Positions 16,887 to 28,527 of a stretch of DNA of 64,000 nucleotides are shown one piece after another; the first letter of the stretch is position 1, and each line of letters opens with the position of its first letter. A program made the translations under genes and the position numbers. Below the pieces are notes generated by a model that worked only from the letters and a program-made list of their open reading frames with translations, was not told where the DNA came from and did not search any database. Source of the DNA: an uncultured Allomuricauda sp. (GTDB lineage: Bacteria; Bacteroidota; Bacteroidia; Flavobacteriales; Flavobacteriaceae); the NCBI RefSeq assembly GCF_947501165.1, contig NZ_CANMUU010000001.1, positions 434,001 through 498,000 on the forward strand, given 5' to 3'.

Positions 16887-17321
16887 TTAGTTGGGTTTAG
16901 AGTCCTTGCGACATTCCTGCCACAAGGGACATCCTTTTTCATTTCTAAGTGGAAGGATGCTTCCGTTCTTTTCAATCTGCATAGCTATGATAAGTTCCTT
17001 TCCTTCATAGATGATTCTAGAACCGGTAACCTGTAGCACGTCTCCCCTTTTCAGTTCAAAACGCTTTTCTTCCAAATACCAATCTGGTCCAACATGTATG
17101 TTTACTTTGCGCTCATTATTCTCAAGTTGAAGGTGTATACAACAATAGTCCTTATCCGAAGTCAAAATAGTCTCAACTTTATATATCATACCATTAACTG
17201 TTTCAACAGTATTAATGTCAAATTTCGTTTCAAACAGATGCAATTTGGAAGTGTTTTTTTGAGCGGAAAGAATCCCGATACCGAACGCAATAAACCATAC
17301 GAACAAGTGTACTTTTTTCAT
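16887..17321 (-). CDS. Secreted OB-fold-like protein, exporter operon
   Basis: A 144-residue protein with a signal peptide (MKKVHLFVWFIAFGIGILSAQ). The mature part is a string of beta strands including GMIYKVETILTSDKDYCC, HLQLENNERKVNIHVGPDWYL and RGDVLQVTGSRIIYEGKELIIA, which resembles an OB fold of the type found in periplasmic proteins. A CPLWQEC pair ends the chain, and a CC pair lies mid-protein. Function unknown. It is first of the exporter group and carries the group's promoter, so it is likely co-expressed with it. Confidence 0.65.
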   Translation of the reverse strand: MKKVHLFVWFIAFGIGILSAQKNTSKLHLFETKFDINTVETVNGMIYKVETILTSDKDYCCIHLQLENNERKVNIHVGPDWYLEEKRFELKRGDVLQVTGSRIIYEGKELIIAMQIEKNGSILPLRNEKGCPLWQECRKDSKPN

Positions 17322-17346: not shown

Positions 17347-17420
17347 CAAAACTACTTTCCAAACACAAGGCGTAAAATGATTACAGTCATTGTACAGGGG
17401 TGATTATTATACTTCTTTTG
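17347..17420. promoter_or_regulatory. Shared, two-way Crp/Fnr-type promoter region
   Basis: The palindrome AATGATTACAGTCATT contains TGA-N6-TCA at 17378-17389. Leftward, TAGTTTTG (17347-17354, perfect TAnnTTTG) sits 23 bp away and drives the exporter group. Rightward, TTCTTTTG (17413-17420, six of eight) sits 23 bp away and can drive the YtfI/YtfJ-like pair. Confidence 0.7.
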
Positions 17421-17962: not shown

Positions 17963-18317
17963 AGAATTACTGAAACAGATTACGGATTTTATTAAAACAG
18001 AAGCTACAACAGATACCATAGTTGGAGAGCAATTTCAACTGGGTGAGTTCAAATGCGTACCTGTAATTAAAGTGGGTATGGGATTTGGTTCTGGAGGTGG
18101 CGAAGGTGTTGATGGAAAAATACGCAAAGGTGAAGGTCTTGGTGCAGGTGCGGGAATGGGCATTGAGCCTATTGGGTTTTTGGTAACCAAGGATAACGAA
18201 ATATCTTTTTTGGAAGCAGGAAAATCCCATGGACTTGCGGCGGCCTTTGAAAAAGTTCCTGAACTGATAGAAAAAATCGTTACAAAGAAACAACAGGCAG
18301 AAAAAGAAACGGTTTAA
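17946..18317 (+). CDS. GerW/YtfJ family protein
   Basis: A 123-residue cytoplasmic protein of the YtfJ (GerW) family. It shows the family's core: TIVGEQFQLGEFKCVPVIKVGMGFGSGGG, the glycine-rich stretch GEGLGAGAGMG and PIGFLVTKDNEISFL. In Bacillus the family is linked to spore germination, but here the host should not form spores, so the role must be different. It overlaps the DUF2953-like gene by 17 bp and is probably translated together with it from the Crp/Fnr-type promoter. Confidence 0.85.
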   Translation: MDLQFEELLKQITDFIKTEATTDTIVGEQFQLGEFKCVPVIKVGMGFGSGGGEGVDGKIRKGEGLGAGAGMGIEPIGFLVTKDNEISFLEAGKSHGLAAAFEKVPELIEKIVTKKQQAEKETV

Positions 18318-18366
18318 TTGTATTGTTTAAAAAGAATTATTGATTTTGAATATTTCTTTCTTAAAC

Positions 18367-18409
18367 TGATCTAGGTCATTTCAGGTGTTAGGGACTCTTT
18401 ATACTTTAG
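18367..18409 (+). promoter_or_regulatory. Crp/Fnr-type promoter with no ordinary gene behind it
   Basis: TGATCTAGGTCA (18367-18378) is followed 23 bp later by TACTTTAG (18402-18409). Transcription should start near 18415 and run into a region without a normal gene that ends in the terminator at 18650-18681. Confidence 0.65.
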
Positions 18410-18414
18410 CACCA

Positions 18415-18681
18415 TTAATGACGTTCATGAGAATTTTTGATAAAGACCGGAATGATCTTTACGGCAGTGTAAAGAGGAAGAGTTCATTGTAGCTTATCCG
18501 CATACCGGTTGGTCTTTGAACCGATAAGGAACAGAGGCCTGGTGGAAAATTGACTTCATCAAGTACTGATGTTTTGTCTTAGATATTTTGGCAACAGAGT
18601 ATTGAAAACAAGGTGATGGTATAAAAATGAAATCGGTTTTTTTATAGCGGAACAGGAGGTGCAAACCTCCTGTTCTTTTTT
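18415..18681 (+). ncRNA. Candidate small RNA of about 265 nt
   Basis: Inferred from a Crp/Fnr-type promoter at 18367-18409 and a strong terminator at 18650-18681, with no ORF longer than 24 codons in between. A 10-bp stem with an 8-nt bulge lies at 18493-18528 (CTTATC and GGTT pair with AACC and GATAAG). A short ORF of 24 codons starts at 18418 (MTFMRIFDKDRND..., stop at 18492), so a small protein or a dual-function RNA is also possible. The nearest real gene downstream starts 51 bp after the terminator. Confidence 0.55.
18650..18681 (+). terminator. Rho-independent terminator
   Basis: Perfect 11-bp arms GAACAGGAGGT and ACCTCCTGTTC around a GCAA loop, followed by a T-run. It ends the candidate small RNA. 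Confidence 0.85.
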
Positions 18682-18732
18682 ATAGCCACCCCAGTTATCC
18701 GAAGACGTTCCTTCCAGAATCTTGATGAACCT

Positions 18733-19356
18733 ATGGAAACTTTTTCTTGGCATAATTCTATTTCAAGAAAGACCATTCCCAAAATGGCCTTGGCTGTTTT
18801 CATTGTTTTCTATTTGATCTCCATACTTATCCATGTTCATTCATTGGCTTTACTTTCCCCAAATAATACAATTTCAATTTGGGACGGTTATCTCTGTGAT
18901 TTGATTGAACCCAGCATCCCAGGCCTATATAGAAATACAGCCAGACCATTTGCAGTTGTGGCCTTATGGTCTATATGTTTTGGATTGTTGTTCTTGTGGA
19001 GAAAACTGATTACGGTGTTAAGACCAAATTATGGATGGTATCAAATAATCTGGCATGGGCTTGGTCTGTTTTCCATTTTTTTGATGCTATTGCTACCGTT
19101 CGGAAATCATGATCGTATCATTTTTTTCTCAGGAATGTCAGGTATTTTTTCCGTTCTTTTTGTGTGTTTGGACCTTGCGAAAAACAGGTGCTACGAACAA
19201 TTATGGGCAGGTATATTGTTTTTGGTTGCACTCACTTCCAACAACCTCTTGTACCTTATTGACTTTTGGGTAGACCTATTACCCATGATACAAAAGTTCA
19301 CACTTCTTTCGTTTGTTGTTTGGTATCTGCTCCTTGACAAATTAACCCCCAAATAG
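18733..19356 (+). CDS. Hypothetical integral membrane protein
   Basis: A 207-residue protein with five or six hydrophobic segments (about 20-45, 80-95, 113-130, 138-150, 162-178 and 185-200). I recognise no family. There is no signal peptide before a charged N-terminus, so it is probably an inner-membrane protein with loops on both sides. It begins 51 bp after the small-RNA terminator and has no clear Crp/Fnr-type site of its own. It is followed by a convergent gene. Confidence 0.6.
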   Translation: METFSWHNSISRKTIPKMALAVFIVFYLISILIHVHSLALLSPNNTISIWDGYLCDLIEPSIPGLYRNTARPFAVVALWSICFGLLFLWRKLITVLRPNYGWYQIIWHGLGLFSIFLMLLLPFGNHDRIIFFSGMSGIFSVLFVCLDLAKNRCYEQLWAGILFLVALTSNNLLYLIDFWVDLLPMIQKFTLLSFVVWYLLLDKLTPK

Positions 19357-21996: not shown

Positions 21997-23496
21997 GTGA
22001 AACTCTTCGAGCAAAATAGTATTTTCAAAATCCTATCTGAGGCCATTTCGGAAGGTATTCTTATAGTTAATGACAAACAAACCATTGTTGCCAGCAATAG
22101 TGTGGTCAATGCAATGTTTGGGTATCCTGAAGAAGGTTTGAATGGAGAATGCCTAAGTGTTTTATTACCAACAAATAGTAGAGTAGTCCATGAATCGCAT
22201 TTTAAGGATTTCCTCGCCAAAGGCAAAAAGCGAAGTATGGGACTTGGGCTAGATTTAGAAGGAGTTAGAAAGGATGGCACCAAATTTCCCCTCGAAATCG
22301 GGTTGAACCCCTTTAAATTACTTCGCAAGGATTACATAATGGCCTTGGTCGTGGACATAACCGAACGAAAAAGAGCAGAGCAGGCCATAAATCACTGGTA
22401 TAGGATTTTCAATGAATCACGCAACGAAATATTTGTGTTCGATGTGGAAAGCTTTAAGTTTTTAGATGTGAATTATGGGGCTCGATTGAACTTGGGCTAT
22501 ACCACTGAGGAGTTGGAAGAGAAATCCATTCTGGATATAAAACCCGAGCTCACACATGATAGTTTGACCCGTTTGATTAGACCTTTGCTCAATGGTATCA
22601 AAGAAAAGATAGAGTTCGAAACCATCCACCGCAGAAAAGATGGCACCACCTATCCCGTGGAGGCACACTTGCAGTTATCAACCATTGGCAAGAAAAGGGT
22701 TTGCGTTGCTATTGTATTGGATATCACGGAACGTAAAAACTATACCCAGACTCTTGAAAACAAGGTTGAGCAGCGTACCATGCAACTTAGCGAAGCATTA
22801 AAAGCTGAGAAAAAACTAAACGAGCTAAAGACCAAGTTTTTGTCTCTGGTATCCCATGAATTCAAAACACCCCTGACAAGTATACTTACCTCAACATCCC
22901 TTTTATCAAAGTATACGGAGGGAGATCAACAGGACAAACGTGATAAGCATATCGAAACCATTAAAACAAAAGTTAGGTATCTGGACAACATCCTTACTGA
23001 TTTTCTGTCCATAGAGCGTTTGGATTCCGATAAGGTAAAGTATAATTCAACCAACTTTTCTTTGAGCAAAGTGATCAATGAGGTTGTTTACAATGCAAAT
23101 ACCCTTTTAAAGGAAGGTCAACACATAATTTATCCCAAGGACATAGATGGAATTTCCATTTCATTTGATGAGAAAATAATGGTTTTGGCCCTTTCCAATC
23201 TTTTGCACAATGCCATTAAATATTCCCCTGAAAATACAAATATTGAACTCTTGGTTGAAAAAGACCAAGATCACTTGACAATCAAGGTCAAAGACAAAGG
23301 ACTTGGCATACCCGAAGAAGAACAACCTTTTGTTTTTGATAGGTATTTTAGGGCAAGCAATGTACTTACCACTCAAGGCACAGGGATTGGGCTGAATATT
23401 GTAAAACAGCATATGAACAACCTTGGCGGAATAGTAGCTTTTGAAAGTGAATTGGACAAAGGTTCCTCCTTTATGGTAAAGATTCCCATTAAATAG
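21997..23496 (+). CDS. PAS-PAS sensor histidine kinase
   Basis: A 499-residue cytoplasmic kinase without membrane segments. Two PAS domains (about 8-130 and 135-250) end with the DITERKRAEQ and DITERKNYTQ motifs, a coiled coil follows, then HisKA with FLSLVSHEFKTPLT (phospho-acceptor His287), and HATPase_c with LSNLLHNAIKYSPEN, VKDKGLGIPEEE and GTGIGLNIVKQHM. The start is GTG at 21997; a stop lies in frame just above. The response regulator follows after 7 bp. No haem ligand is obvious, so its signal is unknown. Confidence 0.93.
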   Translation: MKLFEQNSIFKILSEAISEGILIVNDKQTIVASNSVVNAMFGYPEEGLNGECLSVLLPTNSRVVHESHFKDFLAKGKKRSMGLGLDLEGVRKDGTKFPLEIGLNPFKLLRKDYIMALVVDITERKRAEQAINHWYRIFNESRNEIFVFDVESFKFLDVNYGARLNLGYTTEELEEKSILDIKPELTHDSLTRLIRPLLNGIKEKIEFETIHRRKDGTTYPVEAHLQLSTIGKKRVCVAIVLDITERKNYTQTLENKVEQRTMQLSEALKAEKKLNELKTKFLSLVSHEFKTPLTSILTSTSLLSKYTEGDQQDKRDKHIETIKTKVRYLDNILTDFLSIERLDSDKVKYNSTNFSLSKVINEVVYNANTLLKEGQHIIYPKDIDGISISFDEKIMVLALSNLLHNAIKYSPENTNIELLVEKDQDHLTIKVKDKGLGIPEEEQPFVFDRYFRASNVLTTQGTGIGLNIVKQHMNNLGGIVAFESELDKGSSFMVKIPIK

Positions 23497-23503
23497 GCAA
23501 CCC

Positions 23504-24553
23504 ATGAAAAAGATTTTACTTGTAGAAGACGATGCATCACTACGTGAGAACATAGCGGAACTTCTTGATTTATCAGGATTTTTGGTTTTTGACGCAGCCC
23601 ATGGCAAAATAGCTGTGGACATTGCAAAAAAGGAATTGCCCGATATAATCCTGTGTGACATTATGATGCCCGAGCTTGATGGTTATGGTGTTTTGGAAGA
23701 ATTATCCTCACACCCTGAAACCAGACACATACCCTTTATCTTTATTTCAGCAAAAACGGAGCGGCAAGACGTACGCAAGGGCATGAATCTTGGAGCCGAT
23801 GACTACTTAACAAAACCATTTGAAGAAGAAGAGCTTTTAAACGCAATCCACTCTCGACTGCAAAAAGCAAAGCTTATTGATTCCTTAATATCACTAAAAC
23901 ATCAAAAGCAAGGAACAAGGAACCAAATACGCTCATTGCATCAGTTGAAAAACTTTTTTGATGATTATGGTCAAATAGTTTCATTTAAGAAAGAGGAAAC
24001 GGTATATAGTGAAGGTGAGCACTCGAATACCATTTATTTAATACTAAAGGGCGTAGTAAAATGCTACAGACTGGATGAACAGGGCAAAGAACTGATCACC
24101 GCTCTCTATGGAGCTGACGAGTTTTTGGGATTTACTTCTCTCTTGGAAAATCTACCCCATCAAGAATACGCAGTGGCCATTGAGAATGTTGAAATGGCCG
24201 GTATAGCGAAATCAGAACTGAGAACCATCCTGGAGGATAACAAAAATGTCTCCCTTGAGCTGATGGAAGTACTTGCCGGCAACATTACCGAGATAAAAAA
24301 GCAATTATTGCAAATGGCATACAGTTCTGTTCGAAAGAAAACCGCCCAAACTTTATTGCAGTTCGAAAAAGCCATGGGAAAAGGGCCAAAAAAATGTTTG
24401 CAAATAACTCGTAGTGACCTGGCCCATGTAGCAGGAGTGGCCACCGAAAGTCTCATCCGGACCTTGTCAGATTTCAAGCATGAGGGATTGATTGAGGTTG
24501 AAAATAGGGACATTAGAATATTGGATAGGGAAACCTTGATGCATATTCAATAG
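23504..24553 (+). CDS. Response regulator with cNMP-binding and Crp/Fnr HTH domains
   Basis: A 349-residue hybrid: receiver domain 1-120 (acidic pocket near residues 8-10, phospho-acceptor Asp52 in LCDIMMPELDG, Lys104 in TKPF), a cNMP-binding-type barrel (about 150-255, GHSNTIYLILKGVVKCY-like segment) and a Crp-type winged HTH at the end. The recognition helix reads ESLIRTL, keeping the Glu and Arg that in Crp and Fnr read TGA half-sites. This fits the many TGA-N6-TCA sites around it. No Fe-S Cys cluster is seen. It is paired with the kinase 7 bp upstream. Confidence 0.93.
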   Translation: MKKILLVEDDASLRENIAELLDLSGFLVFDAAHGKIAVDIAKKELPDIILCDIMMPELDGYGVLEELSSHPETRHIPFIFISAKTERQDVRKGMNLGADDYLTKPFEEEELLNAIHSRLQKAKLIDSLISLKHQKQGTRNQIRSLHQLKNFFDDYGQIVSFKKEETVYSEGEHSNTIYLILKGVVKCYRLDEQGKELITALYGADEFLGFTSLLENLPHQEYAVAIENVEMAGIAKSELRTILEDNKNVSLELMEVLAGNITEIKKQLLQMAYSSVRKKTAQTLLQFEKAMGKGPKKCLQITRSDLAHVAGVATESLIRTLSDFKHEGLIEVENRDIRILDRETLMHIQ

Positions 24554-28188: not shown

Positions 28189-28527
28189 TTAGGTTTTGAT
28201 TAGACTTTCCAATACTCTTTCCAGAGAATAGGATTCCGATTCAAGACCCGCAAGTCTGCGGGATAAAATAGAAAAGCTTCGGCCCGTCTCCATGGTATTC
28301 GAAAATTGTTGCACCAAGGATTTATGCTTGAATCTAAGCTCTTGGATGGACCATGCAATCTCGCGGGTTTCCTCAAGATGAGGTATTGTAGAATTCATGT
28401 TTAGATAATTGGTGAGGATTATCTGTAGCTCACTGAGCTTTTTCCTGAAGTCTTCAAGTTTTTTCGAAGTCTCCATTGTGGATCTTTTTGGGTTTAGAGT
28501 GCTTCTGATTGTTTCAATTTGTTCCAT
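28189..28527 (-). CDS. Small coiled-coil protein
   Basis: A 112-residue, fully helical protein without Cys or membrane segments (for example TSKKLEDFRKKLSELQIILTNYL and AWSIQELRFKHKSLVQQF). I recognise no family. It is the only minus-strand gene among the Usp genes and has its own Crp/Fnr-type site, so it is likely induced with them. Confidence 0.65.
   Translation of the reverse strand: MEQIETIRSTLNPKRSTMETSKKLEDFRKKLSELQIILTNYLNMNSTIPHLEETREIAWSIQELRFKHKSLVQQFSNTMETGRSFSILSRRLAGLESESYSLERVLESLIKT

Follow-up and report, generated by a model that had tools for sequence, protein, structure and literature searches.

What does a regulon-type promoter transcribe when no gene stands directly behind it? 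The question is raised by positions 18367-18681 of a 64,000-nucleotide stretch of DNA from an uncultured Allomuricauda sp. (hereafter the window, with coordinates counted from its first base), which a preliminary description had presented as a small RNA gene under a Crp/Fnr-type promoter. FnrS of E. coli is an sRNA switched on at low oxygen by a Crp/Fnr-type regulator. In our judgement, the regulatory RNAs of Bacteroidota outside the gut are little charted, and keyword searches of open-licence papers returned no Crp/Fnr-driven sRNA in this phylum among the matches listed. The observation as a whole was confirmed, in that the promoter, its spacing, the terminator and the absence of a gene could all be recovered. 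Both sequence statistics and one related genome give good support to the view of the locus as a non-coding transcription unit driven by a Crp/Fnr-type promoter, and it is this part of the earlier interpretation that stands; nothing was found in favour of the proposed nos or stress mRNA targets, and a bulged stem is absent from the predicted fold. Our best reading, to which we give somewhat better than an even chance (about 0.55), is that 18367-18681 is a stand-alone, young, lineage-restricted regulatory RNA gene of a Crp/Fnr-type regulon.

A Crp/Fnr-type promoter at the regulon spacing

The locus begins with a candidate activator site, TGATCTAGGTCA, on the plus strand at 18367-18378, which fits the pattern TGAYNNNNRTCA and is followed, exactly 35 bases from its first base, by a -7 box, TACTTTAG (18402-18409, plus strand), that matches the Bacteroidota TANNTTTG at five of six positions. 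With each near-palindrome scored on both strands, the window holds 44 strand-sites of this pattern, against a mean of 11.15 and a maximum of 22 in 40 shuffles whose length was within 12 bases of the full window. At the exact offset of 35, 15 of these 44 strand-sites, that at 18367 among them, have a box of at least 5/6, while only 0-2 sites reach 5/6 at each of the other 34 offsets tried (20 to 54). Where the best box at offsets 34-36 was taken, 16 sites reached at least 5/6, 15 of them at 35, compared with a mean of 0.375 and a maximum of 3 in shuffles. The regulon promoter previously placed at 18367-18409 is therefore upheld, its site and box lying at exactly the regulon spacing. Since the -7 box of Flavobacterium psychrophilum spans positions -12 to -5, according to the excerpts of that study used here (PMC9723704), the predicted start falls at 18414 and the centre of the site at -41.5. 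Within the promoter predicted for the RNA itself, the site stands where an activator would act. A sigma-70 scan reported no plus-strand promoter at 18367-18409, as expected of a scan that does not cover Bacteroidota promoters. We take the -41.5 centre to be a class II position, and, judged from the DNA, 18367 is a real Crp/Fnr-type promoter.

The site type and the neighbourhood suggest that the regulator is probably a REC-cNMP_binding-HTH_Crp protein encoded 5 kb away (23504-24553, plus strand), next to a PAS histidine kinase (21997-23496, plus strand), both assigned through Pfam. At E<=1e-40, 51 of the 71 genus genomes encode a relative of this regulator, and some have a second copy (37-55% identity). 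The neighbouring genes encode universal stress proteins (Usp), HSP20, DUF2267 and Spore_YtfJ proteins, with NosD and nos_propeller proteins at 42-47 kb of the window, and these neighbours point to low oxygen or stress as the signal to which the RNA may respond.

A promoter without a nearby gene

Genome-wide, the combined pattern of site and box, with at most one mismatch, has 44 matches, compared with 6 for the reversed pattern. In 29 of the 30 loci in the first set read, an ATG-initiated ORF of at least 60 aa begins 0-89 nt from the predicted start, at distances of 0-53 nt in 27 cases and 0-21 nt in 24. The exception is 18367, where the first downstream ORF of this size starts at +319 (18733), in agreement with the earlier statement that no real gene lies within the unit. 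Of the remaining 14 matches, nine have an ORF of at least 60 aa within 100 nt, one precedes a 48-aa ORF at +16, and four are embedded in long open frames, two in the same and two in the opposite orientation, and hence may be chance or intragenic. On these ORF lists, which are mechanical and no proof of genes, 18367 is the sole one of the 44 that lies outside long open frames and is not followed within 100 nt by an ORF of 48 aa or longer. Five relatives together contain 102 exact pattern matches, 30 of which were read as loci. One of these (L120) carries the same RNA, in Flagellimonas meridianipacifica (G027). At four more (L103, L111, L121 and L126) the first ORF of at least 60 aa lies beyond 100 nt, so that the genus does contain long leaders or small genes.

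The predicted transcript and its fold

Initiation at 18414 would yield a structured transcript of 268 nt (18414-18681, plus strand), close to the product of about 265 nt expected previously, as delineated by folding, a two-species consensus, and DNA and covariance-model searches. It ends in an intrinsic terminator at 18649-18681 on the plus strand, in which the terminator scan recognises 12 pairs (18649-18676) around a 4-nt loop, followed by a T run to 18681, with a hairpin energy of -20.8 kcal/mol; the 11-bp stem earlier drawn from 18650 is correct, the twelfth, outermost pair of the scan being G-T. The intrinsic terminator and the lack of a gene-sized ORF both fit a Crp/Fnr-regulated sRNA. 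The full transcript folds to -83.3 kcal/mol (z -4.67), an energy equalled by none of 200 shuffles. Without the terminator the z-score is -3.08 (1/300 shuffles as good), and that of the antisense strand is -1.23. The upstream segment 18320-18413 also folds below its shuffles (z -2.37), which counts against the RNA reading.

The predicted folds arrange the plus strand into a three-way junction of helices 1-3 (18445-18510), a hairpin of helix 4 (18511-18539) and a long hairpin of helices 5-6 (18542-18645), ahead of which the 5' part is partly open, with mean unpaired probabilities of 0.71, 0.38 and 0.65 over its first three tens of bases. The bulged stem once proposed at 18493-18528 does not survive this analysis: folded alone, the segment forms just the inner five pairs and one more, and full-length folds in both species place its bases in the 18445-18510 junction and the 18511-18539 hairpin.

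Conservation between two species

Flagellimonas meridianipacifica belongs to the same genus as the window genome. All four of its differences within 18367-18409 spare the consensus: its activator site, TGACCTAGGTCA, keeps the pattern, and its -7 box, TATTTTAG, is changed at an N position. Across 18410-18648, 11 of 239 bases differ, one being a deletion, and the terminator has no differences. The changes are clustered, with 1 in the 129 bases of 18405-18533 and 10 in the 115 bases of 18534-18648. Relative to the third codon positions of the flanking genes (26/332), the latter segment changes at the neutral rate (p 0.84) and the former is conserved (Fisher p 0.0017), a conservation weaker than this value suggests, because the borders were picked after seeing the differences; a scan test of the invariant stretch was marginal (p 0.06).

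The two-species consensus fold contains 86 pairs, all formed in both species, with five one-sided changes and none affecting both sides. As this consensus is derived from the very two sequences on which it is scored, a control was made with an equal number and mix of random changes, of which 4 in 400 reached the observed consensus energy, or 6 in 400 with the terminator spared. Within the three-way junction the single substitution, T18456C, occupies a column unpaired in the consensus; the helix 4 hairpin has one pair-keeping change, G18534A; and four one-sided changes in pairs of helices 5-6 all keep a standard pair. The check on relatives thus returned conservation of both sequence and fold, without the covariation also sought, which could not become visible because the RNA occurs in 2/71 genus genomes as two near-identical sequences.

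The conserved 5' part also contains the 24-codon ORF to which attention had been drawn (18418-18492, plus strand; ORF list), with a second in-frame ATG at 18427 that would leave 21 codons. It is improbable, in our estimate, that the unit is the mRNA of such a 21-24-aa peptide followed by an extended structured 3' region, or that it is an RNA with two functions. The ATGs at +4 and +13 would suit the usual short leaders of the regulon (24/29 at 0-21 nt), small proteins do follow such promoters, for example the 48-aa ORF in L129, and the sole substitution between the species within the ORF falls on a third codon position. However, a single difference carries no statistical power, and the conservation continues past the stop codon, with no differences in 18493-18533.

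Restricted distribution and probable arrival behind ytfJ

DNA searches of 99 relatives gave nine genomes at E<=0.01, with full matches solely in the window's own (G000) and F. meridianipacifica; the pieces of 20-46 bases in the other seven were taken as chance. Likewise, DNA searches found the RNA in 2 of 60 genus genomes, and 12 of 397 family genomes had matches at E<=0.001, of which one is the window's own while the other 11 contain pieces of 25-40 bases. A covariance model of 18414-18540 found the RNA in two of the 71 genus genomes and, among the 397 family genomes, in that of the window alone, under strict filters that lose weak matches and, in the family search, with eight candidates per genome scored. 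Rfam covariance models had no matches above the gathering score across the whole window. Assignment to a known RNA family was rejected for 18300-18760, where eight Rfam matches had E values of 1.1 to 4.8, all far below gathering scores. The RNA is probably new and lineage-restricted, unrecorded so far but in all likelihood a regulatory RNA of an ordinary kind.

Upstream, a ytfJ-like gene (Spore_YtfJ, Pfam PF09579; 17946-18317, plus strand) reads toward the RNA, which could make the latter a mere extension of the 3' untranslated region of the ytfJ transcript, the 18367 promoter being decayed or idle. The terminator scan finds nothing between ytfJ and 18366, and the ytfJ operon has its own regulon-type promoter at 17378, both of which favour such a tail. 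We nevertheless rate it the least probable of the explanations considered, given that the promoter consensus at 18367 is kept in both species despite four changes, and that at each of the 24 other ytfJ loci in the genus the ytfJ stop is followed, 13-34 nt on, by the start of a hairpin, under a loose rule (at least 8 pairs, G-T allowed) that in the window itself reports a loop-10 hairpin, 66 nt past ytfJ, and none in F. meridianipacifica. Hence a long tail behind ytfJ is an addition, not the rule.

In 7 of these 24 loci a WG-repeat gene stands convergent directly behind the hairpin, with the membrane-type gene absent between them, and two further WG matches (L033, L035) are on the other side of ytfJ. 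In the window and F. meridianipacifica, the RNA and a 207-aa gene both sit between ytfJ and the WG-repeat gene. This arrangement suggests that the RNA and the 18733 gene probably arrived behind ytfJ as one piece.

The downstream gene as an alternative destination

The 18733 gene (18733-19356, plus strand) encodes a product that is membrane-protein-like by virtue of its six hydrophobic stretches, and that has no Pfam family at E<=0.001. Its differences from F. meridianipacifica by codon position number 3, 2 and 16, a distribution indicating that the gene is under selection. Thirteen (13) other genus genomes encode relatives of the protein with 20-31% identity, and F. meridianipacifica has one as a second copy. 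For one of them (G106, 31% identity) a regulon-type site lies 108 bases before the start of the match, with TACATTTT 35 bases on, a spacing read by eye. In three others (G049, G039 and G035) the relative sits after an ORF, the end of which presumably resembles B12-dependent ribonucleotide reductase.

This gene supplies the main rival to a stand-alone RNA gene, namely that the RNA is a long 5' leader of the membrane-type gene, in which read-through is restricted by the terminator and early termination leaves the short RNA as a by-product. Such a leader is favoured by the absence of another visible promoter for the gene, there being no -7 box of at least 5/6 between 18682 and 18733, and would be consistent with their probable joint entry, with the selection on the gene, and with the regulon-type promoter before its relative in G106. 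Set against this are the strength of the terminator and the lack of a competing fold. A fold lacking the terminator would be less stable by 15.6 kcal/mol in one species and 17.4 kcal/mol in the other, which gives no sign of a built-in antiterminator switch, and the best upstream pairing of the terminator's 3' arm differs between them; an attenuator fold was rejected as too costly in its terminator-disrupting form and not conserved in its competing pairing. Furthermore, other promoters of the regulon lie close to their gene (27/29 at 0-53 nt), and no known riboswitch was matched in Rfam. A protein- or ligand-driven switch may nonetheless exist in the RNA. On balance we consider a leader unlikely, if a serious contender, and prefer the stand-alone RNA gene.

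Proposed action and relation to known RNAs

As a stand-alone gene, the locus would operate as follows. An activator of the Crp/Fnr type, with the REC-cNMP-HTH_Crp protein as the best candidate, would bind at -41.5, transcription would start at 18414, and RNA polymerase would stop at the 18649-18681 terminator, releasing an RNA of 268 nt in which a partly open 5' end is followed by a three-way junction, two more hairpins and the tail formed by the terminator. Other transcripts would then be its targets, probably recognised through base pairing with its conserved 5' region, in analogy to GibS in Bacteroides, and some polymerases may read through into the 18733 gene, for which no clear separate promoter is seen. 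The DNA itself contains the promoter, its spacing, the terminator, a predicted fold kept in one relative and no gene-sized ORF; transcription, the identity of the bound regulator, a low-oxygen or stress signal, and the RNA's mode of action are inferred.

A trans-acting role is possible. The preliminary description had suggested nos or stress mRNAs as targets, an idea that found no backing within the window: pairing of the RNA's 5' part with the window's 59 translation-initiation regions reached -12.8 kcal/mol at best, and 99 of 100 shuffled seeds did at least as well. As seed pairing was no better than that of shuffles, we propose no target. A profile search of the genome for Hfq (PF17209) did not find it, the same search being positive in 5 of 14 control genomes; this absence counts against a regulatory RNA.

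Two of the closest parallels are found within the phylum. In the excerpts of its description used here, GibS is a trans-acting sRNA of Bacteroides thetaiotaomicron, a genus reported to have no obvious Hfq or ProQ (PMC7366714). Like the predicted RNA, GibS belongs to the Bacteroidota, is intergenic, starts and terminates independently, has an open 5' part that is conserved, and acts in a host without an obvious Hfq, just as none was found in the window genome; in contrast, it is 145 nt long, largely unstructured and induced by N-acetylglucosamine, and those excerpts describe no Crp/Fnr-type promoter for it (PMC7366714). Rfp18 and other Rfp RNAs of F. psychrophilum, also of the Flavobacteriia (Flavobacteriaceae), are portrayed in the consulted parts of their report as independent, often structured and condition-dependent; in contrast to the window RNA, with its 2/71 genus genomes, Rfp18 is conserved in further species, and it influences protease mRNAs (PMC9723704). 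PaiI of Pseudomonas aeruginosa is reported to be a low-oxygen sRNA induced through a two-component system (PMC5703892). Both FnrS and PaiI come from another phylum, and for the window RNA control by oxygen is putative; it matches no Rfam family, FnrS and 6S included.

More tentatively, and at somewhat less than even odds, the RNA may be recently born: promoter, RNA, terminator and membrane-type gene would have entered behind ytfJ in one Flagellimonas lineage. In a genome in which Hfq was not found, the RNA would then be the sole non-coding output of a Crp regulon that is governed by a two-component system and comprises about 40 promoters. If real, the RNA would add a post-transcriptional arm to a regulon with which marine flavobacteria respond to stress or low oxygen and, as it is found in just two species of the genus, would offer a chance to watch a new sRNA being recruited to an old regulon.

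Other promoters of the regulon

Several other promoters merit record. Within the window, regulon-type promoters stand back to back over one palindrome at 17378-17420 (plus strand) and 17389-17347 (minus strand), facing the ytfJ operon and the minus-strand gene at 17321. A further regulon-type site with a 4/6 box (28585-28543, minus strand) precedes a 112-aa minus-strand ORF starting at 28527, which falls below a 120-aa cut-off. In relatives, L103 from 1501 (G045) and L126 from 2176 (G106) each have a regulon promoter, a leader of about 160 nt and then a long ORF, the L103 leader holding a run of nine T. Finally, L129 (G000:C1:502628, minus strand), 4.6 kb to the right of the window, has a regulon-like promoter followed by its 48-aa ORF, which contains one hydrophobic stretch.
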